A stretch of DNA of 38,107 bases from Saccoglossus kowalevskii (taxonomy: Eukaryota > Hemichordata > Enteropneusta > Harrimaniidae). The translations under genes were made by a program, and so were the position numbers. The DNA is taken from positions 23,258-61,364 of the forward strand of contig NW_003122415.1 in the NCBI RefSeq assembly GCF_000003605.2, in the 5' to 3' direction. This document shows positions 3,870 through 33,611 of the stretch, piece after piece. The notes beneath the pieces were generated by a model that saw only the letters and a program-made list of their open reading frames with translations, was not told the DNA's origin and made no database searches. Numbering within the stretch: position 1 is the first letter of the stretch; each line of letters opens with the position of its first letter.

Positions 3870-4786
3870 TCAAAACTGTTATTTTTGACTTCTCAAAAAC
3901 CATTAGCTGGATTGCTTTTATATTTATCATGTAGGTACCTCAGGTGGTCCTCTCTCAGGTTTGTTCATTTGCTGACGATATCTGCAAGATTTTATTTTTT
4001 TTTTAAATATTTTTGTCAAAAAAAGTTATTTTTGACAACTAGTCCAAAACCACAAGCCCATATGCTTTAATATATGCAGTAATGATACTTGGGATAGTCC
4101 TCTGTCAGATTTATTAAATTTGTGTCAAAATAGGCAAATTTGGGTTTTGAGTGAATATTTTTCTCATTTTTAGCTCCTGTGAAACGGGGCTTATGTGTTA
4201 CTGGGCTCTCTGAGCCATAACTCTGACTACAATGTGTTCCACTGTTAACTCAAGATCTACAATTTCAATTCAAATTAAATTTGGCACACAGCTAATATAT
4301 GATGAGTAGGTGTGCTGATTAGACTTTGGTGCAATTCCATGCATATTAATTAGATAATTATTGCATTAATTAATTTATAGTGGTCTTTGAACTTTTTTGA
4401 ACAAATATTTGACTTTGGTGAGTACTTTAATGCTATCGTAATTTGCATATTGCGATAACGTATTCACATGTTTATTGCTTCTAACAGGCTATAGTGTGAT
4501 AAATGATGGGCTCAAAAGGCTCCTCCAAACTTTCACGGTCAGGTTAAGGTCATTCAAGGTTACATGTTTATTGCATGTACATGGGTGCTGTGTAACATTG
4601 GGAGATCTGAATTTTACCTCTCCCCCCCCCCATGCCAAGGTCATGTGTGACAATCAATGGGTTTGAAATTTTTTCCAAGTTCACATGTGTGCTGCTCATG
4701 ATGGTATTCTTTAACAATTGTTTATGTCCATAGAGAATTCGTCTGCATTTGACAGCAGAGTTCTATCGACCGCAAGGTTGCTTGTT
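3870..4786 (+). mobile_element. Dispersed repeat B, long copy
   Basis: The left end carries CAAAACTGTTATTTTTGAC followed by CCATTAGCTG, and the right end carries GACCGCAAGGTTGCTTGTT. The same two ends, in the same order, occur only about 110 bp apart at 10470-10580. The left-end motif also occurs once more inside this copy (about 4015-4036). No protein is encoded. The pattern suggests a non-autonomous element with an internal-deletion derivative. The family is not identified. Confidence 0.45.
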
Positions 4787-4958
4787 TAAAATGTCACCGG
4801 TGAGCGATCAGGCCAATTGGCCTATTTTTTCTATTGTAATTGTAATCTCATAAGAATGCTTACTTCAAGATAAATCTGATTAGGAAGGTTCCCCTTTAAC
4901 TCATTAGTGCAAATTTCATGATTGGGTTAATTAATCTCTTAAATATTTTCTTTCCTAG

Positions 4959-5585
4959 AATCGAAATGATATCAACACCATTTGTTGTTTAGCAGAACTT
5001 AACCAAGACAGCTATGATGTTTTCAGACAAGTTCTTCAGCTTTTTGAGGAAGGAAGACTAAAAGAACAACGCCTTTCCAAAAAAGATCGCATACAAAAGC
5101 CTGACATGAAAACTTACTTGTTCAGGGACTTAATGTACCTAAAGGAAGATACCGTCAAGATCCAACTGTCCTACCTTGCTGATAATACGATGAGCATAGG
5201 TGAATTTACCAGGGAAAACACCTTCATGAAATCACTTGCTAACATCCAAAAACATTTTGTCACACAGTTAGGAGTAAAATCATGGCAGGAGGTAGAGGAG
5301 TTGTATCTTCACCATGCAACCAGAGAGTATTTGAAGAGATACATTGATTTGGACTTCAGAAAAGGAACACCGGAGGTCTTGGTCCAAGCCTGCCGATACT
5401 TAAAAGAAAACCATGCAAAATCCCATGATAATACCAATACAAGGCAGTATGATAAGTTCAGTGGTTCATCAAACACAACCAGTTATGCAGCTATCTTGCC
5501 TCCTCATGCTGTCAGTGCCCATGAAATAAAAAAAGTAGCCCCTGAATTTCAGGGAACTGGCTTATGCATTTTAAACATGCCAGAG
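4959..5585 (+). CDS. Methyltransferase-like gene, first visible exon
   Basis: The exon starts right after a pyrimidine-rich acceptor (TTTCTTTCCTAG, ending 4958) and ends at AG before a perfect GTGAGT donor at 5586. It holds exactly 209 codons, phase 0 at both ends, with no stop. Composition is clearly coding: charged, helix-prone residues with runs such as LFEEGRLKEQRLSKKDR and EVEELYLHHATREYLKRY. No in-frame Met precedes the one at 5106 (residue 50), so either an upstream exon exists or translation starts there. The last residues, GLCILNMPE, sit where a beta-strand plus the D/N-P-P-Y catalytic motif would be in a methyltransferase. The first about 190 residues match no domain I recognise. 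Confidence 0.75.
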
Positions 5586-7729
5586 GTGAGTTCTATACCT
5601 TCTCTGTAGTATAGTATTACTACTTTACTTATCCTGGTATAAGCTCATAAGCCCATCCTTCAATATATTAATGGAAACTGTTTACTAATAAATGTATTAT
5701 TGTTTATGAGAAAACAGTGTAACCAGAATAACCAGTTCATCTAAAAGGAACACGACCACTACATGTTAATTGACTTCCTGGTTTGTTCCCTTTGAAGGTA
5801 GTCCAGTAAGAAATAGTGCACTGTGTTTCTTGCTAAAGTCTCAACTTCCTGGGATTTGAATCGATGCAGATCATTTTTACCTTGACCTTGGAAAGGTATA
5901 TGAGGGGGAAATGTCTGACTCATCGTTGTCGCCGACCACGGTGTAAACAATTTTGTGGGTCCAATAACTCAAAAAGTGTTTATACATTTCTTTTCAAATC
6001 AACATATGTTGTTGAGTATTATAATATCTCGGCCAAGTTCGATTTTGGTGTGTCTAGCCCATATATTTTTAGAATTATTGATGAAAATATATTTTAAAAA
6101 TGTCCATAGACTTGACATTGGCTTGGTATATTGAAATTGGATCACTCTATTGTATGCAATCATGCCACAGCTAAATATAGATGTGTACTAAACCTAGATA
6201 TTTTAAATATGATATCAGTCCAGGAATGTTTCATGATAACTTTTAATTTTAATGTTGTAAATAATACTTCTATTTGGAGTTCTTTATATAAGATCTCTAA
6301 ATAAGGGATGGGCCATTTTACTTTAATGGGTGTAAATATTTTATGTGTAACCATGTAATTTGTGTCACTCTTGAAGAACACAAAACATGTGGAATATGGG
6401 TAGTCCATCTGAACTTGACTGTACATGCATTAGGGATGGACCAATATTCTTAGGGGGGTGTTCATATTATTCTATGTAATTAACAATTGGACCCCAGTAG
6501 GTTTGGTTGAGGCATTACTGGTTTGGCATTACTGGCATTTGGTTGAGGCGTGAATGTTCTAGATAATTACTGATCTGTTATTAAGGGACAGACGATTCAA
6601 CACAGGGTGGGTGATTTTAGCAGTGGTTTCAATATACTTCACAAGGTCAAGGTTTCAGTAGTTCAACTGTTTTTACTTGTTATCATTGTCATTGACAGTG
6701 TGTTTTAAAGAACTAAACCAAAATAATTTTAAAAATGTTTAATGTTATTGATTTATCGGATTCAGCCAATACCCCACCCTGAGCGATCATTGTAGGGATT
6801 GGGCTTTTAATTTAAAACCATGTACCAAAACAGGGAGATGTTTCAAAGAAATTTGGCAGCGAGTTGAGGGATGATTTAGTGAACTACATAACTAAAATAG
6901 CTGAAAACTGCATTCACATGTACACACGAGTGTAATTTTACATAGTGACATTAAATTAAAAGCAAAAAGTTATTAAAAACAGGTTTTTAATAAATCAATT
7001 TATGTGACATATCTTGCACAATATGTTGAGAATATTCTGACGAAACAATGAGATATAGAAATACAACCAAATTATTGTCTATGGTAATTCTAATAGTGGC
7101 CTCGTACCAAAAGCTCAGAATATGCAAAAAGTAAATGATCATATCCTAACAATAAAAAAAAAGTATAAATAGGAGAGCCCCCATAAATGTAATTGGCCAT
7201 GGCCTAAAATTTAGGTTCCCTTTGGCACAAATATTATGGATATCTATCCCCACCCACCAGAAATAATGGTCCACCCCTTAATGCACAAGTTTTACCATAT
7301 TGTGCAATGCCTTTCATATCAGTGAAAGTGTTAATGAATTTATGGACATTCCATGTCCTTCTCTGCACAGAAAATTTAGCATTGGAACTCCAATGAATTA
7401 TAATATTGTGTGCAGAGATAATGAACTGTCACCGCTGTTTCGGTTCCTGATGCATTGACATAAACCAGATTTAGGATATTTTCTATTATAAATATGCACC
7501 ACTCTTGACAAATGATGTGCATAAATTAAAACAATGGAATCATTGTGTGTGGAATGTTTCAATGCATATTTACTCAGAAGTTGCCAGCTGCAATAGTTTA
7601 CAAGGAGATATGAAGCAAGTAAACTTGTCCTTTTCTAATAAGAGTATGGAATACCAAAATCATTTTCCCATAGAGTATCTTTTTCATGATCCTGCAGGTA
7701 ATATATGGTCTGCTTTATTTTTATTGTAG
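5586..7729 (+). other. Intron of the methyltransferase-like gene
   Basis: Phase-0 intron of 2144 bp. It is AT-rich, with a short internal duplication (TTTGGTTGAGGC repeated between about 6500 and 6550). The open frames inside are short and lack coding character. I see no second gene in it. Confidence 0.6.
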
Positions 7730-7925
7730 ACATGGACTGATGAAGATTTGTCACATTTTACTGTAGCTTTGAGATCTGTGTGTCTGGACATTGGGGCACC
7801 ATATTATTCACTGGTTGTTTTAACTAAGATGTCAAAACTGTCAAACACAAAAAAATTGCTACAGTCCTTGGATATCTTTTCCAAAGTGGAAGATATATAC
7901 TACTTTATTGAAAACACAAAATCTG
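7730..7925 (+). CDS. Methyltransferase-like gene, second visible exon
   Basis: Acceptor TTTTTATTGTAG ends at 7729 and donor GTAAGT begins at 7926. The 196 bases give 65 codons plus one base, entering in phase 0 and leaving in phase 1, which matches both neighbours. The product starts TWTDEDLSHFTVALRSVC. This resembles the segment after motif IV in N4/N6 methyltransferases, where an aromatic-acidic turn precedes a helix and then a hydrophobic strand (YYSLVVLT here). It continues with a helix (KKLLQSLDIFSKVEDIYYF) of the kind that follows in that fold. The resemblance is by pattern, so moderate. Confidence 0.7.
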
Positions 7926-9330
7926 GTAAGTTGCAAATTAAATAAACATTATCATGAGTATGACTAATGCAAGCTACTATTTCAGATAGCCTTAAGTAAC
8001 GGAGTCATTGGTGTACGAAACATTTGCTAAAAGCTTTTTCGTCAGACACTGATCACAGCAAAATATCTGAATGAAATAGTACAGGAAAACACAAAATTTA
8101 TACAAAAATTGGCCAATAAGAAACCAGCAAAGACTGGCATTGTACTGGAATGGGCCAATCAGTGCCACTTGTCAAAGAGACCGACAGATTCTCAAGTTCT
8201 GTACAACTCGCAACTTATTCAAATATTTCAGTCGTTCGATGATTCAGGGCCCACAATTTTAAATAGCATAACTTAACCAGTCTTCTCACCAGGACGTGTG
8301 ATTGCATTATCCTGCACCACGTCATCATCTGATTTGAAAAATACTACAAACTTACTCCACTGGAGTAATAACAAGTGAAATAACAGTGAAAAGAAAGGCA
8401 CATAAATATGAATGATTAACACATTCACACATAAAACTCCAAAAAAAACACACCACAATAACGTATTGACAACATTTTTTTAGGTGTAATTGTGCTAATG
8501 TTTCTTAACGGCAAGCTTGAAAGCAAACTTTGCAATATTTTATTACGAGTGACAGCCATGTACAGTAAACTACATGAATGTAGATTTCCCTTGTGTGTGG
8601 TGGAACATTTTGCAGCAAAATTTGTTAAAATTGACTCGCTCTCATTACTTGTTCAAACAAATTAACAGCTAATTAAGGTGGTGGAAAAAATTTTAAACAA
8701 AATTCAGGGACATTTCTGAAAAATTTGTCATGGAAAGTTTCCAAAAATGAAAACTTTGCAGGTATGATTCATTCATAATTTTATAAAAAATATTATTCAG
8801 AAAAACTGAATTATCAGAAAGTTTTGTTTGACTCTCTTATATTGAATTTATTATCATGAAGTACTTGTACCTCATTTAGATGTAACTACAATTTTGCTGA
8901 AGTATTGTTTTGCACTGGCCGCCACATTAACTGAATTTAGCTACAATTGGTCCACGGCCAAACAAAGCAACTTGGGTGTACCGTACTAAATTTAGCACTG
9001 AACCATGCCAGGGTTTCCTGTAGGTGTTTTTTTTTGGGGGGGGGGATCAATCTCTAACATTCTAAGAGCTGAATTTGTTTTGTTTGTTTATTTGGGTGGG
9101 TGCAGAATCCCCCCCAAAAAAAACAGGCCTGGAGGAAGTCCTGCATGTATATGATATAATATCAACAAGGGTGCCAACTAATACTAAAAGAAATACTGCT
9201 TGCTCTGGAAATGTGTGGAATAGTTGGGTAAAACAATTCAGTTCAAATATCATGTAATGCTGGTCACTCTGCTTATATATTTACTTAGTCATGATGTACA
9301 AGAAAAACTTTTAAATCTTTTTTCCCCTAG
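7926..9330 (+). other. Intron of the methyltransferase-like gene
   Basis: Phase-1 intron of 1405 bp. The only structure I see is the homopolymer inverted repeat at about 9011-9138, listed separately. Confidence 0.55.
9011..9138. repeat. Inverted repeat with T/G and C/A homopolymer arms
   Basis: The left arm has TTTCCTG..GTG followed by nine T (9027-9035) and ten G (9036-9045). The right arm has seven C (9109-9115) and eight A (9116-9123) followed by CAGGCCTGGAGGAAG. The right arm is the reverse complement of the left over roughly 25-30 bases, with a few mismatches, and the loop is about 63 bp. It could fold as a hairpin or be a small foldback element. Confidence 0.5.
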
Positions 9331-9592
9331 CCAAGCGCACTTTTTGGAGTAGTGTGAATGGAATGCTCATAGCATATTGGTCTTCAACTGGCAGAATCAC
9401 CAATGATCAAATAAATTTTTGAACCAAATCAACCCCATCACAATTTGTTTAATGTAACACAAGATGAGCTGCTGTTAAATGAGGAGAACCAGATTGTGGA
9501 TGACGATCGAATTCCAGTACAGATTATGGAAATTATCATAAAATTATTCACAAGAGAAGGAGATTGGTTATTAGAAGTGGCAAGCAGTACAG
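9331..9592 (+). CDS. Methyltransferase-like gene, third visible exon, with internal frameshift
   Basis: Acceptor CTTTTTTCCCCTAG ends at 9330 and donor GTATGT starts at 9593. In the incoming frame the exon reads KRTFWSSVNGMLIAYWSS and onward, then meets TGA at 9420-9422. In the next frame it continues without a stop, from EPNQ through RIPVQIMEIIIKLFTREG to the splice site, and that frame joins exon 4 correctly. The switch needs removal of one base, most simply from the five-T run at 9416-9420. The exon length of 262 is one more than the phases of the neighbours allow. The NGMLIAYWSS segment fits the strand after the target-recognition region; the C-terminal part begins motif I. Confidence 0.7.
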
Positions 9593-10204
9593 GTATGTTG
9601 AAAATTCATATTCTATATCGACTAAGTGTTTGAAAGAAAAATAGGTGAGCTGATTACATTCATATATTGCAAAATTGGTGACAAAATATTAGTTTTTTTA
9701 GTGAATATTTTAATCATTTTTGACATTGAACCTCAAGTTGGATGACTTTGAATTTCAATATGGATGTTCCTAGCCTACAGTAAACTTCAGTAAATTTCAT
9801 TATGATATGTCCTCTGTACGAGATGCTTAGAAAGCGGCTCATTCCCATTTGGGCTTATACAAATCCATCTGCAAATAAGTTTTATTCTTTAATGTCATGT
9901 AATTCATTTGAAATTATTAGTAACTTAGCTGTTTTTATACAAAATGCATTTAAGTTGAGACAAGATGTACTTGACCTTTGACCAAAGATTTGTTGCATCA
10001 GTATTGTAATAAGCAAAAGGGGCCAGTGGCCTATAAGAGCAAATAAAAAAAATATATACAGTAAACTTAATTGTCTATTTCAACTGCCAAGTCGTTTGTT
10101 GTAAAATGTGCACTATAAATAGAATACATGTTTCTGTCATCAGGAAAGACTGAATTCCATGGCTAATTTAGATATTCAACCTTAATTGATTGCTTTAATT
10201 TCAG
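9593..10204 (+). other. Intron of the methyltransferase-like gene
   Basis: Phase-1 intron of 612 bp, AT-rich. It contains a GGCCAGTGGCCT palindrome-like motif at about 10021, resembling CCAATTGGCC at about 4812 just past repeat B. Nothing else is seen. Confidence 0.55.
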
Positions 10205-10356
10205 GTTCAGTACTGATTGGAGCACTGCGTTGTGGCAGAAACTGCATTTCTTTCGAAGAAAATGAAAACAAGTTTCCCTCTATTGTGAAAAGGGCTACAA
10301 CGGAAGAAAGTATTATAATGATGAATCTTTTTGGAGACAGTGCTTGTGGTGAATAA
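10205..10356 (+). CDS. Methyltransferase-like gene, last exon and stop
   Basis: Acceptor TTTAATTTCAG ends at 10204. The exon completes a split Gly codon and encodes 49 further residues before TAA at 10354-10356. SVLIGALRCGRNCISFEEN matches the helix and acidic strand that follow motif I in N4/N6 DNA methyltransferases (consensus TTLxAALRLGRxxIGIEID). The glycine- and phenylalanine-bearing loop just before it has eroded. The conserved acidic position at the strand end is present as E-E. The short tail ending in ACGE has no recognised role. Confidence 0.7.
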
Positions 10357-11848: not shown

Positions 11849-12451
11849 TCAGGGGGGAATCCTTTTCTTTCTGGGTTCTCCACACGTGTCAGGGGGAATA
11901 TCGTCCCGTCTCTATATCGCGTCCCCTCGAGGTACGGGGTCGGGAAAGTCACTTAAGCTTTACAGTCAAATAAGACACACACAACGAAATACGTTTCTAT
12001 AAGACACAGCGCCCTGGGGAAAAATTCCCAAGACTATCGTAAGGCTGACCCAAGACTCGCCCAAGACTCTCCAGGACTCGACTTAGACTGCGTCTATGTG
12101 GAGTACTCGCCAAGATCAACTCAAAACTCTTTATTCATTTTCAAAACATTAACCAATTACAAAGCAGTAAAAAGACTCTAAGGCGTAACATTCAAGCATA
12201 CAGCCAATCACACTAAGTACTGAATAGTTATATCTTTTGATTAATCGTTCACTACATTAATAACTACGGATACCAACTGTCAGAATTAATAGTCTGAATA
12301 GCTACGGTTATCTCGTAATTAGTTCCAAATCACTGAGCCAAGTTCCGTCCAAAACCTCAAATAGGCCTAAACGATGACAGACATAACACAGCAATTCACT
12401 CGTAATCAGCTAATTAAGTCGGTCAACAGATACGCAAAAACAAATTCATGA
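11849..12451 (-). mobile_element. Dispersed repeat A, copy 2
   Basis: Collinear with copies 1 and 3 from the TCAGGGGGG edge to AAATTCATGA. It lacks about 32 bp present in the other two just before the TAAGACACAGCG landmark (about 12000). It carries an extra CCCAAGACTCG-type mini-duplication at about 12050-12085. The short hairpin is at about 12014-12029. Minus-strand flanks are A before TC and T after CTGA, the dinucleotide context expected for a Helitron insertion. Confidence 0.7.
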
Positions 12452-21543: not shown

Positions 21544-22169
21544 TCAGGGGGAAATCCTTTTCTCTCTGGGTTCTCTACACGTGTCAGGGGGGAAACTCGT
21601 CTCGTCTCTATATCTCGTCCCCTTGAGGTACGGGATCGGGAAAGTCACTTATACTTTACAGTCAAATAAGACACACACAACGAAATACGTTTCAGCTCTC
21701 GTCTTAGTCGGTCAATCGAGCATTCTATAAGACACAGCGCCCTGGGGAAATATCCCCAAGACTCTCTTAGACTGCGTCAACACTCGCCCCAAGGCTCTCC
21801 AGGACTGCTCTAGACTGCGTCTATCGTGCTGTGCTCCCCAAGACCAACTCAAACTCTCTTTATTCATTTTCAAAACTCTAACCAATTACAAAACAGTAAA
21901 AAGACTCTAGGGCGTAACCTTCAATCATAAAGCCAATCACACTAAGTACTGAATACGTCATATCTTTTGATTAATCGTTCACTACATTAATAACTATGGA
22001 TACCAACTGTCAGAATCGCGACGGATATCTCGTAATTAGTTCCAAATCACTGAGCCAAGTTCCGTCCAAAACTTCAAATAGGCCTAAACGATGACAGACA
22101 TAACACAGCAATTCAGCTAATAATCAGCAAATTAAGTCGGTCAACAGATACGCGAAAACAAATTCATGA
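21544..22169 (-). mobile_element. Dispersed repeat A, copy 3
   Basis: Collinear with copies 1 and 2. It retains the about 32-bp segment missing from copy 2, and it has an extra CTCGCCCCAAGGCTCTCC stretch at about 21780-21830. A short segment around 22014 is missing relative to the others (the TAATAGTCTGAATAGCTACG region is shortened). The hairpin at about 21744-21759 is perfect over six base pairs. It starts with TCAGGGGG and ends at AAATTCATGA. It sits between two decayed minus-strand coding fragments. Confidence 0.7.
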
Positions 22170-22889
22170 CAGTATCTGTGTGGTTAAACATCACTGGCAC
22201 AATGAGGGAATGATACAATTTTACAATATGTCTATTTGTGTAGTCTACTCGATGTGTTAGTGGTTTGAGCTCTTCAATAGAGAGAATGTTATTTACTGGA
22301 TCTCTCACTTTTACATAAAATAGTCGTCATGTAGAGTTGTAAGTTGTGAGCCCCTTCTTACACACATTATTATTTCGACATACTTATCACACACAATCTT
22401 TAGATATCAGTATATCCTTTCTCTCCTAAGTACACATCTATTGTTAATGTACCTTGGCAGTTTCGTCATTACTTTCTTGTACTGCTCAACATCCTCTAAC
22501 ACATTCAGATTTCCTCTGGTGATCACACAGAGTCTCATGAGTCACTTTTAATGGACAATTCATTTATTTGAATTTATTCATTTATGAATTTATTCATTTA
22601 TTTTCTTTCTATGGACTTCAGCTACCATAAATTTGTTACCATATTGCTCACTAGAGATACTACTGGCAACACTGAATATCACAAAGATAACAGTTGTTCA
22701 AAATTGACAAGCAAGACTATGGTTTCAGCTATTGTCACTAGCAGTTAAGCTACTACGCTTACCTGACGATCTGGTAATGAGTCCGGCACGCCTGGCTACG
22801 CTGAAGATATTTCTAAGCAAGAGAGAATGTTTAGCTTAGTGTCTAGAAATATTTGGAGACCTCAATGCAAAACTATTAAAAATGTGTTT
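22170..22889. other. Non-coding spacer
   Basis: No gene seen. It contains the 16-bp duplication at 22570-22601. Confidence 0.4.
22570..22601. repeat. Perfect 16-bp tandem duplication
   Basis: GAATTTATTCATTTAT occurs twice in direct succession (22570-22585 and 22586-22601), with a partial unit on the left. Confidence 0.85.
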
Positions 22890-24541: not shown

Positions 24542-27500
24542 CAGGATTGTTTATTTAGATAAATACTACAAAACATAGAAATAGTTGTTACGAGAAATGG
24601 CAGGTTTTTAGAGAATATAAAAGTCGATATATAAGTTTATGAGATTCTGTACTGATTTTTCCATGGCAACACATAAGCTATGCTATTCAGTCAAGCATAG
24701 TAAGACCTTGTGCAGAAACGCTGCTATTTATGGTTTAGTCATTCTCATCATCTATCTAGTCAGACATTGATAGGACTTGTAGTTTCTATATTTGTTACAT
24801 GACGATTAACTAATTTACATATTAGTAGACAACAAAATAATCGTCAAAAGCGTATATATGCTTGAACGCTGTGTTTGAACCGCAATGTACTATGGGATTG
24901 TGCCTAAACATTACTTTAGTAACTACTATCTTGTCTTGGAACATCAGACTGGCGAGAATTCAATCCTTGTTCAATGTTGATCGTTTGTAATTAACACTTT
25001 TAACTGCTTTGGTAACAGAATTGAAGGCTAGAATAATTAAAAAAAAACACATGCTTATAATAGATTTAATTGTTTGTATTAACCGGAAACAATTACCGAT
25101 CAAACGAAAACTATTTAGGCAGATATTACTGGCAAAAGCTTATCACATCAACATGTTTTACATAGATAATATAGACACCTTTATGAATTGACTCGGTCAT
25201 AGCCAAAGTAGATTTAACCAGTAACCTTGGCAACCGTGTGTTAATTATGCTAAACAAGGACAAACTACTAGCTGATGTAATGAATGTCTAAAAATATATC
25301 TGTAGATAGTCGTGACATTCATGCTTACACAGCTCGCTCACTTAAGTTCTTTTTAGATGAGAACTCGTGATTAGATAGCTATTAGTTTCTGGTCAACTGG
25401 ACAACATAATCACCATCATAATCAAGCTATGTAGCTTTGTTTATACATTGAGCATGTTACTAGGTAAGTAGACATGTTTTCCGATTTAAGTCCTAAATTC
25501 GAAGAATTTATATTTTAATTGTTCTGACTGACAATGTAATGTAATAAGTATAAATCCAAATGATAGGACGTTACATCTTAAAGAATTCTGTCACAACAAT
25601 ACAATTCGTTGAAATAAACTCCCACCCGAATTGGGAGATTGTATGGCGTCTGTGAGTGTATGCACATGTAGACACACGGTCATATATGGTCCGCCGAGCA
25701 CAACACATATAACCTTCCCCATCACATGGAAACTCAGCTACGTGTATGTACGTACGGTGTATACAGGTACTTCACACAATACAGAGATGCCAACCTTTAT
25801 CTTTGACAAATAGTAATGATTAAAATTTACGACGGTGAATATTTTCGACCCTACTGAATATCTAAAAACATACAAGCTGAAGGATTTATATAATTTATAC
25901 AATTTTATTACGCAGTTAACTGTTATCTCCTTCATTTTAGTTCATAATTGAAATTCAGGACTATATAACAACAAATTGAATTGTCAATGTGTGTTTAATG
26001 TTTGACTGCAAGGAATACAATTAACTTGACTTTGAACTTTTATTCAGATCATATTCTCTGAACAATATAATATGACTGAAAACAACTGAGAAGGAATCTG
26101 AATAACTGATATTATTTATGATTAATATTATAATCACATTTGATATGCAGCACATTTGTCCCTTTTAAGCAAACTTTACCCAAGTTTGGCAGAGTGGCAC
26201 GTGACACACCTCGTGACACACCACTTGCTTGTGAGTTAAGAGAGAAGCCAACACTTTGTTGCCCAAATTAGGTCTATACTTTGTCGTATTCTTTGTACCT
26301 AAACCGAATACCTTGCACAATGCACATTTTAATAAAAGATGGTCAGGAGTCCTTTCGTAACTTTTGCCAACATATTACGTCTTTTGGTGCAAATAAAAAT
26401 GATTTGCATCGCCATTGATTTTCACAATACTGTTACAATATCAAAAGAGAAATAGTCACAATGTTGTTTACATACTACACCAACATTAACGGAGTAAAAT
26501 TATTAGGGTCTGAGGGAAAACGGTCGAAGGTTGATCATTATCTTCTACGAATATTTTCAATTGTAGGTAAACTCCCTATGCAAAGCAATTTCCGCTGTGA
26601 TGCTTTCTCGCACGACTTGAACTGCAACATCGTCCTTTGACCTAATAGGTCAAGTCTGTTTTTAACCAATCAGAATGGAGTGTTGTATCGACACAATTCC
26701 CCGTGAATTCCCGAAGGCATTCTGGTAACGCAATGCGGAAGTAAATTATAGATGTCAAAGTACAATCTGTTGGAATTGATTTCATGGTAAAAAAAATGGC
26801 ATGTTGTTTTTAAATAGGGTAATTATCATTTTTTTAAAGGGTAAACTGAATATTGAATTGAGTATTTACCGACTTTCACGGTTGTTGACATGTCATTGTC
26901 GAAGCGTAGGTACCGTGGTTACCATGGTTTACACATTCGCACGATGTTTACGGCGGCATTTGATTACCGGTATTCGGAAAAGTGAAACAATGCTCAAAGA
27001 CCAGATTTTATGAACAGGCAGTCAAATTTGGAGCATTTTGGCAGGGATGGGGGCTTAGCGAACGTGAACCTGAAATTAGTAATGTACCAAAAGTTGGAGA
27101 TGGGTGTTTAGTCGTGCATGGGCGCTGAGTCGGACGAGTATGGTAAAATCGTAGTAATTATTTTCTGTATTGTAATAACGTAATCTAGCCCTCATTTGTA
27201 ATAATTACGCTGAAATAGTAATGATTGATAACAATATATACACACTGGGTGAATTTACCAATTGATCATACAGAGTTGCAGTTCAATCAGATCGTGTGTC
27301 TGGTGCATGTACATGCTCGTATGTATCATCCAATCAGTAGTCTCTACTTATTTATATACATGATGTAATTTAAAAGATTAAAAATAACTAACGATCATTG
27401 TAAGCGAATTAGCGCAGGTGTGATTTAAAATGGAGGTAATAATGAGTCTATTCATGACGTGGGCGTGTTCATAACAAACATAATAGGGTTAGAACAAATG

Positions 27501-32188: not shown

Positions 32189-33565
32189 TTAAATACATCT
32201 ACCACAGGTCAACTTCCAGAAGGTTTTTCGGAAATCAACATTGAAGAAACCATAAATTAATGGGTTTAGCGCAGAATTTACGTATCCAAGCCACACTGAG
32301 GAACTGATGAGTATAGGTGGGATATGACAATTCCCACAAAAAGGTTCGATTACATAGATGAGAAAAAATGGAAGCCAGCAGAAAACAAAACACCCGATAA
32401 CAATTGCCAAAGTTTTAGCAATTTTACTCTCTCTCCGCAAGAGCATACGCTCTCGCTTTGTTTCGTCGAACTTCCTTTTTAGTGGAGAGTGTATGCTTCC
32501 ACTTCGCAGCGAATCGGTGTCACTCAAAGAATATCTTTTTATTGTTCGTTTTCCAGCAACAGAAAGGGTCTGTAAATTATCGTCACTTCTCTCAACTCGT
32601 TTATCTGCATCGTCATTTAACGACGCCGCTCTGCTCCTCTGGCGACTATCCACGAATGAAAGATTGTGGTTGTTGTCACCTGTAGAACCATAATTCGTGT
32701 TCATCAATTCTGTTCTCGTTTGACAGTTGTTGTTCCGAATGACAGCTGCCACACATAGCTGTTTTTTTCTCGGTGTTCCAGGCTCACTACCACTTCGATA
32801 ATCGTCGCTATAGCAACTGAGTTGTGGGGATTCCTCCTCTGCTATGAGGCATTTTTTTCGACGAATTGTGCTTCTTCTGCTGTCCCCAATGCTTCCAAAT
32901 CGTTTCTCACTATCACTGGCTACACGGAAGATCCTTGCGTAAACAAACACCATGACAAGTAGTGGTATGTAAAATGATCCACACGCCGAGTAAATTACGT
33001 ACCCTGGTTCTTTAGTCAACTCACATCTGGATGGATCACTACCGTGCTCGGGGTCTTTCCAGCCAAATAGAGGAGGAGAGGTGATCAAGACCGAAGCCAC
33101 CCACACCACTGCAATCATTGAGAAGCAATGTCGCTTAGAGCGCCGTGTCACGTATCGAAGAGGCTGCGTTATGGCAAAATATCTATCGAGACTGATGCAA
33201 CACAAGTTTAAGATAGATGCTGTACACAGTAACACGTCCATAGATATCCATATATCACAGAAGACAATGCCTAACCACCATTTACCGGTGGTTTCCCCAA
33301 GCACATGAAACGGCATGACCAATATGGCTACAAGTAAATCAGCCCATGCTAAGGACACGATATAATAATTAGTTACAGTGCGAAGTCGTCGTTGAGAATG
33401 AACCGCTGCGATCACAAGTACATTGCCGATAATCGCCGATAGTACAATTATGGAGAGCACAATTATAATCAACAACTGTGGATATAATTCAAACTGGAAA
33501 ACCGGACACGTATTCTCACCTTCCTCACAAGTGATGTTAACAGTAGAGTTGTGATCTCCATACAT
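32189..33565 (-). CDS. Class A biogenic-amine GPCR (dopamine D2 / octopamine / adrenergic-like), single exon
   Basis: A complete 458-residue receptor in one exon, Met at 33565-33563, TAA at 32191-32189. It should sit in the plasma membrane and couple amine binding to a G protein. Seven hydrophobic segments are evident. Key residues: N-glycosylation sites N6 and N10; GN48 (TM1), D76 (TM2), C103-C181 disulfide, D110 (the amine-binding Asp of TM3), DRY 127-129, W155 (TM4), S193 and S197 with A194 between (TM5 serines for phenolic or catechol ligands), P201, FVFCWLPFF 393-401 (TM6), Y428 and NPLIY 434-438 (TM7), and C454/C457 for palmitoylation. The third loop is about 165 residues with basic PKA-like sites (RRST 230, KRYS 343, RRES 377), and the tail is short. 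That architecture suggests Gi/o coupling. TM6-TM7 look most like D2 receptors, TM5 more like octopamine or alpha-adrenergic receptors, so the ligand is left open. Confidence 0.95.
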   Translation of the reverse strand: MYGDHNSTVNITCEEGENTCPVFQFELYPQLLIIIVLSIIVLSAIIGNVLVIAAVHSQRRLRTVTNYYIVSLAWADLLVAILVMPFHVLGETTGKWWLGIVFCDIWISMDVLLCTASILNLCCISLDRYFAITQPLRYVTRRSKRHCFSMIAVVWVASVLITSPPLFGWKDPEHGSDPSRCELTKEPGYVIYSACGSFYIPLLVMVFVYARIFRVASDSEKRFGSIGDSRRSTIRRKKCLIAEEESPQLSCYSDDYRSGSEPGTPRKKQLCVAAVIRNNNCQTRTELMNTNYGSTGDNNHNLSFVDSRQRSRAASLNDDADKRVERSDDNLQTLSVAGKRTIKRYSLSDTDSLRSGSIHSPLKRKFDETKRERMLLRRESKIAKTLAIVIGCFVFCWLPFFLIYVIEPFCGNCHIPPILISSSVWLGYVNSALNPLIYGFFNVDFRKTFWKLTCGRCI

Positions 33566-33581
33566 AACTGTTTTGTTTGGA

Positions 33582-33611
33582 TTATACTACTGATCTTTGT
33601 CTTCGTTTCAT
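33582..33611 (-). CDS. Upstream ORF 2 in the GPCR leader (9 residues)
   Basis: MKRRQRSVV then TAA, ending 16 bp before the receptor ATG. Its start codon overlaps the stop of upstream ORF 1 (ATGA). It is too short for a known peptide function. If transcribed as predicted it would reduce or regulate receptor translation by reinitiation. Confidence 0.35.
   Translation of the reverse strand: MKRRQRSVV

Follow-up and report, generated by a model that had tools for sequence, protein, structure and literature searches.

Does a hemichordate gene built like a bacterial DNA methyltransferase, but lacking the canonical motifs, still encode a functional protein, and from where did it come? This question is raised by a spliced gene at positions 4959 to 10356 of the stretch of Saccoglossus kowalevskii DNA analysed here (38,107 nucleotides of contig NW_003122415.1, hereafter the window; this contig, C1496 in our analysis, spans 255,568 bases of a 572 Mb assembly). 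The initial annotation had described four exons in consistent phase encoding a DNA N4/N6 methyltransferase-like protein with eroded motifs, perhaps a repurposed DNA reader. Three longer relatives of this gene were found in the same genome. Together with them it probably represents a family of pseudo-methyltransferases that an animal derived from prokaryotes, of which the window gene would be a truncated member that was either recently inactivated or mis-assembled. Three features had been overlooked previously, namely a frame break, the loss of the 5´ part of the gene and a ParB-like domain in the longer relatives.

A genome search with exon E1 of the window copy gave five matches, corresponding to the window itself, C3194 (35% identity), C1554 (32%), C1340 (29%) and a fifth with an E-value of 0.165, which was not counted. 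Gene models of the three relatives, built by hand, contain seven exons each (P1, P2, P3, E1, M2, M3 and M4) with exon boundaries and phases common to all three, and the window copy comprises the last four of these exons. The exon set in the window is beyond chance, because its boundaries recur in all three of these relatives. The second exon of the window copy, E2, additionally matched C1554 (4e-8) and C1340 (1.8e-6) by tblastn, run against 11 extracted genome stretches only. C3194 and C1340 are open from P1 to M4 with no stop, and C1554 is interrupted once, by a one-base frame break where M3 contains an A run (L015, ~6740-6765). A decayed copy of M2-M4 was detected at C2261 (L020, 4103-5649), with a stop, frame breaks and an intact-looking motif I (LDLCSGTG). 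For C774 we observed only a weak match (E 0.22), which may be due to chance. The features of the window copy are given below.

4947..4958, + strand: acceptor-like sequence TTTCTTTCCTAG directly before E1; in the relatives this position is also occupied by an acceptor, after exon P3
4959..5585, + strand: exon E1, the middle region plus the strand ending in motif IV; 209 open codons
5574..5585, + strand: motif IV position, reading NMPE, with TW encoded right after it by exon E2, placed by alignments with the relatives and phage homologues
7730..7925, + strand: exon E2 (M2), the core after motif IV, defined by GT-AG and by tblastn to the relatives
9331..9592, + strand: exon E3 (M3), the region between the motif IV core and motif I plus the start of motif I, with an internal frame break
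9416..9420, + strand: T5 run with a one-base shift of the reading frame, seen from the translation on either side
9462..9463, + strand: possible alternative acceptor AG, 3´ of the frame break, which could join E2 in frame; from frame arithmetic only
9574..9592, + strand: motif I position, reading EVASSTG, with the last Gly completed by 10205-10206, placed by alignment with the relatives
10205..10356, + strand: exon E4 (M4), the end of motif I to motif II, a short tail and TAA

The introns of the window copy have GT-AG boundaries at 5586/7729, 7926/9330 and 9593/10204, and the junctions are in phases 0, 1 and 1, the same phases as in the three relatives. The open length of E1 has a chance of ~2e-7 for one given stretch at this base composition, a value uncorrected for how many places were inspected. 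Position 4959 is not the start of the gene, because E1 sits behind an acceptor-like sequence and has no Met before codon 50; the gene evidently has, or had, exons upstream of E1. Exon-wise profiles revealed no P1, P2 or P3 in C1496:13258-61364 (best E 0.73, 0.62 and 0.53, respectively), and the ~15 kb preceding the window copy gave no sign of a ParB exon. The four exons and their splice sites as initially annotated are thus borne out, but not the consistent phase, as the frame changes inside E3. The window exons do not read through, because E3 switches frame at the T5 run: the entry frame runs into a stop after ...NDQIN, while the exit frame reads FEPNQPHHN... to the end of E4. When the exons are read in the two frames flanking the break, there are no stops in 411 codons.

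The assignment to the methyltransferases was examined with the PF01555 profile (N6_N4_Mtase, curated cut-off 26.7 bits), and all three relatives scored above the cut-off (53.0 bits for C1340, 38.2 for C1554 and 42.5 for the C-terminal part of C3194). The window copy scored below it, with 22.2 bits for the whole copy and 23.4 bits (6.4e-5) for the second part of E3 together with E4. The same profile run exon by exon against the whole genome gave no matches at 1e-3, a weak negative as the known relatives were missed too. In a tblastn search the C1340 protein matched phage DNA methylases (best E 4e-6), and in PHROGs it matched PHROG 498 at the methylase part (1.1e-14). In PDB, the window copy had its best match in the putative modification methylase 2zie (0.02), and the C3194 part had its best ones in MboIIA (0.0021) and CcrM (0.0047). 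A phage profile was then built from eight aligned phage ParB-methylases chosen among the best of 850 matching records, and profile-profile comparisons, whose E-values hold for one comparison, were controlled with 60 column shuffles. The C-terminal part of the relatives matched the phage methylase profile at 95.7% (8.8e-9) and the window copy alone at 62.9% (7.1e-5), with none of the 60 shuffles scoring as high in either case. By alignment and by profile comparison, motif IV precedes motif I, the permuted order proposed initially. The earlier methyltransferase reading is therefore supported as far as a permuted amino-methyltransferase-like domain with two non-canonical motifs and phage methylase relatives is concerned, but the window copy by itself falls short of the PF01555 cut-off.

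Both motifs depart from the consensus, as had been noted, although not with the same distribution across the family. Motif IV reads DTPQ, DTPQ and DVPD in the relatives and NMPE in the window copy, with a Trp two residues later in each, compared to DPPY in all eight aligned phage homologues. The canonical [DNS]PP[YFW] was seen in none of the four aligned animal copies, within exon-level searches of the genome that used exon 1 and the last part of the gene. On this alignment, the loss of DPPY is family-wide and not special to the window gene, and the simplest reading would be that the catalytic motif was lost once, in a gene ancestral to all the copies, the alternative being parallel losses. 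The Asp, Pro and Trp (D362, P364 and W367) are invariant in the relatives, and the pattern [D/N]xPxxW is found in all four animal copies. For motif I, the relatives have DACCGTG, DACCGTG and DGTCGAG, in which both Gly residues of FxGxG are kept and the Phe is replaced. The erosion to EVASSTG (AxSxG) in this S-adenosylmethionine (SAM) loop is, among the aligned copies, specific to the window copy.

The longer relatives also carry an N-terminal region that resembles ParB. Exons P1-P3 of the three relatives matched the ParB part of the phage proteins at 91.7% (7.9e-7; none of the 60 shuffles was as high), while the middle region, included as a negative control, gave 0.2%. In PHROGs, C1554 matched four ParB-like families (0.003-0.017) besides the ParB part of PHROG 498 (0.0015), and C3194 matched one ParB-like family (0.011). 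Residues 1-426 of C1554 matched 64 phage records by tblastn; the best 20 were each weak (E 0.3-7), with 17 of these named ParB-like nuclease and three DNA methylase or methyltransferase. The phage ParB-methylase behind one of the C1554 matches spans PHROG 498 at 27-428, and thus the two-domain order is the same in the animal relatives and in phage. A phage methylase of similar length, from OzzyJ, was considered as a whole-length match and rejected; with LDPPF, its motif IV, located at about residue 36, the N-terminus is too short to accommodate a ParB domain. To judge from these comparisons, the ParB assignment has weaker evidence behind it than the methylase assignment.

Further 5´ exons of the relatives (L013 of C3194, ~1080-2030, and the matching L017 of C1340) appear to encode a Ser/Asp-rich region and a very basic KKKKSKKRKL-like stretch, suggesting a nuclear protein. 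One intron in this region may use a GC donor, and the frame is ambiguous at a poly-A run there.

The arrangement of the longer relatives is shared with ParB-methylase fusions of phages and bacteria (PHROG 498, the Gordonia phage RedWattleHog DNA methylase and Bacillus cereus Bce_0392), in which an N-terminal ParB-like domain is followed by a C-terminal permuted N6/N4 amino-methyltransferase. For Bce_0392, the ParB domain is reported to nick DNA (PMC5512222). Unlike these fusions, the animal proteins have introns, an acidic tail, a longer middle region unmatched in the phage ParB part and no DPPY, and the window copy retains the C-terminal permuted methyltransferase without the N-terminal ParB part. 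Among animals, the closest parallel is N4CMT of bdelloid rotifers (PDB 8s9m-8s9o), which its authors describe as a permuted N6_N4_MTase of bacterial ancestry with introns, active through SPPY, with a C-terminal chromodomain and no eukaryotic homologues (PMC8885841). The likeness is that of a permuted amino-methyltransferase in an animal; at the sequence level, the two show no significant match (E 0.56-1.2). In contrast to N4CMT, the hemichordate family lacks a canonical motif IV and its longer copies have a ParB-like N-terminus; Pfam scans of the window copy and relatives gave no match to a chromodomain.

What, then, is the state of the window copy? Comparison of E1 between the window and C3194 showed identical bases at fractions of 0.44, 0.61 and 0.29 for codon positions 1, 2 and 3, respectively. 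For C3194 and C1340 in the same exon, the nonsynonymous divergence (dN) was 0.25 and the synonymous divergence (dS) 1.92; dS was saturated for most pairs that include the window copy. The saved codon pattern and dN/dS therefore point to protein-level constraint over most of the history. In a simple simulation of neutral drift across the 411 codons, the probability of finding no stop was 0.038 at 0.05 per site, and drift of the window copy beyond ~5% per site is unlikely. It follows from the absence of stops that the copy is either still constrained, with a break that is false or polymorphic, or was inactivated recently. The most likely state of this copy is that of a gene inactivated in the recent past. 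Given that the ParB part is gone and the frame broken, a pseudogene is at least as likely here as the DNA reader proposed initially.

A number of observations weigh against the view that the window gene is a decaying member of a prokaryote-derived pseudo-methyltransferase family. The copy is free of stops apart from those caused by the frame break, which falls in a homopolymer, as does the similar break in the A run of the same exon of C1554. That two copies out of four have such breaks hints that the assembly contains homopolymer errors, and those in the window and C1554 could both be sequencing errors and not decay. In terms of structure, an AlphaFold2 prediction of E1 alone, without an alignment, had a predicted local distance difference test score (pLDDT) of 42 and yielded no reliable model. 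For the N-terminal domain, when the profiles of the family and of the phage proteins were compared over their whole length, the methylase part alone aligned (67 columns, 94.1%), and no ParB. Pfam returned no ParB, with the best N-terminal match being DUF6551 (0.029, below cut-off), and C1340 taken singly matched no ParB-like partition family in PHROGs, nor did its N-terminal part match ParB in PDB. Finally, SAM binding, DNA binding and a nuclear location of the longer relatives are predictions read from sequence.

The alternative that survives best, possible although in our judgment somewhat doubtful, is that the window copy still yields a functional, if shortened, pseudoenzyme that acts as a partner of the longer relatives, with a break that is false, polymorphic or spliced around. 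Beyond the lack of stops and the unlikelihood of extended drift, this would fit the conservation of codon positions 1 and 2 over position 3, the GT-AG boundaries retained at all three introns, the location of the break in T5, with its counterpart in C1554, and the AG at 9462-9463 that could join in frame. METTL14, the inactive partner of the MT-A70 enzyme METTL3, offers an analogy, as it too has a permuted amino-methyltransferase fold without catalysis. It belongs to a different family, however, and the MT-A70 profile (METTL3/14/4) was not among the Pfam matches of the window copy or its relatives. Against a working protein, neither a start codon nor an upstream exon was identified, the ParB exons going undetected over ~15 kb upstream, the SAM loop is eroded, and decay does occur in the family, as is clear for the C2261 copy. 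Should the frame break prove to be an assembly error, the product would be a shortened protein without catalysis or SAM binding, which could serve only as a partner or scaffold.

It is improbable that the longer relatives methylate DNA or RNA by means of a variant motif DxPxxW. The invariance of D362, P364 and W367, the retained glycines of the SAM loop and the low dN/dS of exon 1 in the C3194/C1340 comparison are all compatible with activity. Nevertheless, all four animal copies are without two residues of [DNS]PP[YFW], the first Pro and the aromatic one, whereas all eight aligned phage homologues have DPPY, and mutation of SPPY to APPA is reported to abolish the activity of the rotifer enzyme (PMC8885841).

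We consider it quite improbable that the genes are part of a mobile element and not of the host. There are several copies, one of them clearly decayed, and a ~600-bp repeat occurs three times in the window with two copies flanking the gene. However, the intron positions are common to four diverged copies, few copies were found, no inverted repeat of at least 60 bases is present in the window, and the extracted stretches around the other copies yielded no match to the window repeat. No transposase was noticed beside the gene, although no systematic search for one was made.

The least probable reading, a protein unrelated to methyltransferases such as a Death-domain protein, had been suggested by a weak Pfam match of E1 to PF00531 (14.6 bits, 0.038), which we rejected given the cut-off of 22.6 and the absence of a match in any of the three relatives, and this reading is largely refuted by the family evidence, that is, by PF01555 above cut-off in all three relatives and by the profile-profile match exceeding 60 of 60 shuffles.

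The window has several other features. The three direct copies of the ~600-bp repeat (1268-1864, 11852-12451 and 21547-22170) lie ~10 kb apart and are 84-86% alike overall, with stretches at 94-98%; the repeat looks like a dispersed element. Shorter stretches at 3872-4171, 4240-4356, 6097-6319, 6557-6674 and 26458-26748 are 67-80% alike to DNA around other loci of the family (L012, L013, L017, L020 and L022) and probably represent dispersed repeats common in the genome. On the minus strand, an open reading frame of 465 amino acids (32189-33586) encodes a rhodopsin-family amine receptor, for which the closest PDB match is the serotonin receptor 5-HT1A (E 3.6e-86), in keeping with an animal genome.

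For the pseudo-methyltransferase family, we propose that an ancestral gene was acquired from a bacterium or phage, gained introns after capture and lost methyl transfer. The longer proteins may have been kept as DNA-binding, possibly SAM-binding, non-catalytic nuclear proteins, with the ParB-like domain contacting DNA and the methyltransferase fold acting as a scaffold or SAM sensor; a role as DNA reader is possible for them. The window copy would be a duplicate that lost the ParB exons, subsequently its SAM loop and now, by one base, its frame. More specifically, we tentatively suggest that a phage-type ParB-methylase fusion might have been domesticated as a non-catalytic DNA-/SAM-binding nuclear family with [D/N]xPxxW as a substitute motif. 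Scans for a donor with the three-relative alignment found no relatives in 78 candidate stretches from IMG/VR or in 167 candidate stretches from GTDB genomes; each scan used two short patterns of the animal-copy type, with which a distant donor could be missed. In the open-access literature, judged by titles and the openings of abstracts among the matches listed, no animal ParB-methylase family was found, making the novelty of such a family provisional.

The three longer spliced genes, with PF01555 above cut-off together with a ParB-like domain, may be set beside the statement that N4CMT has no eukaryotic homologues (PMC8885841). If real and conserved, they would represent a phage-type DNA-modification protein retained by an animal after loss of the catalytic motif and, if the proposed domestication is true, a second animal capture of a PF01555-type amino-methyltransferase besides rotifer N4CMT, in this case turned into a sensor or reader. 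Such a family would make it testable whether "methyltransferase-like" genes in animals imply the writing of N4-methylcytosine or N6-methyladenine (4mC/6mA).

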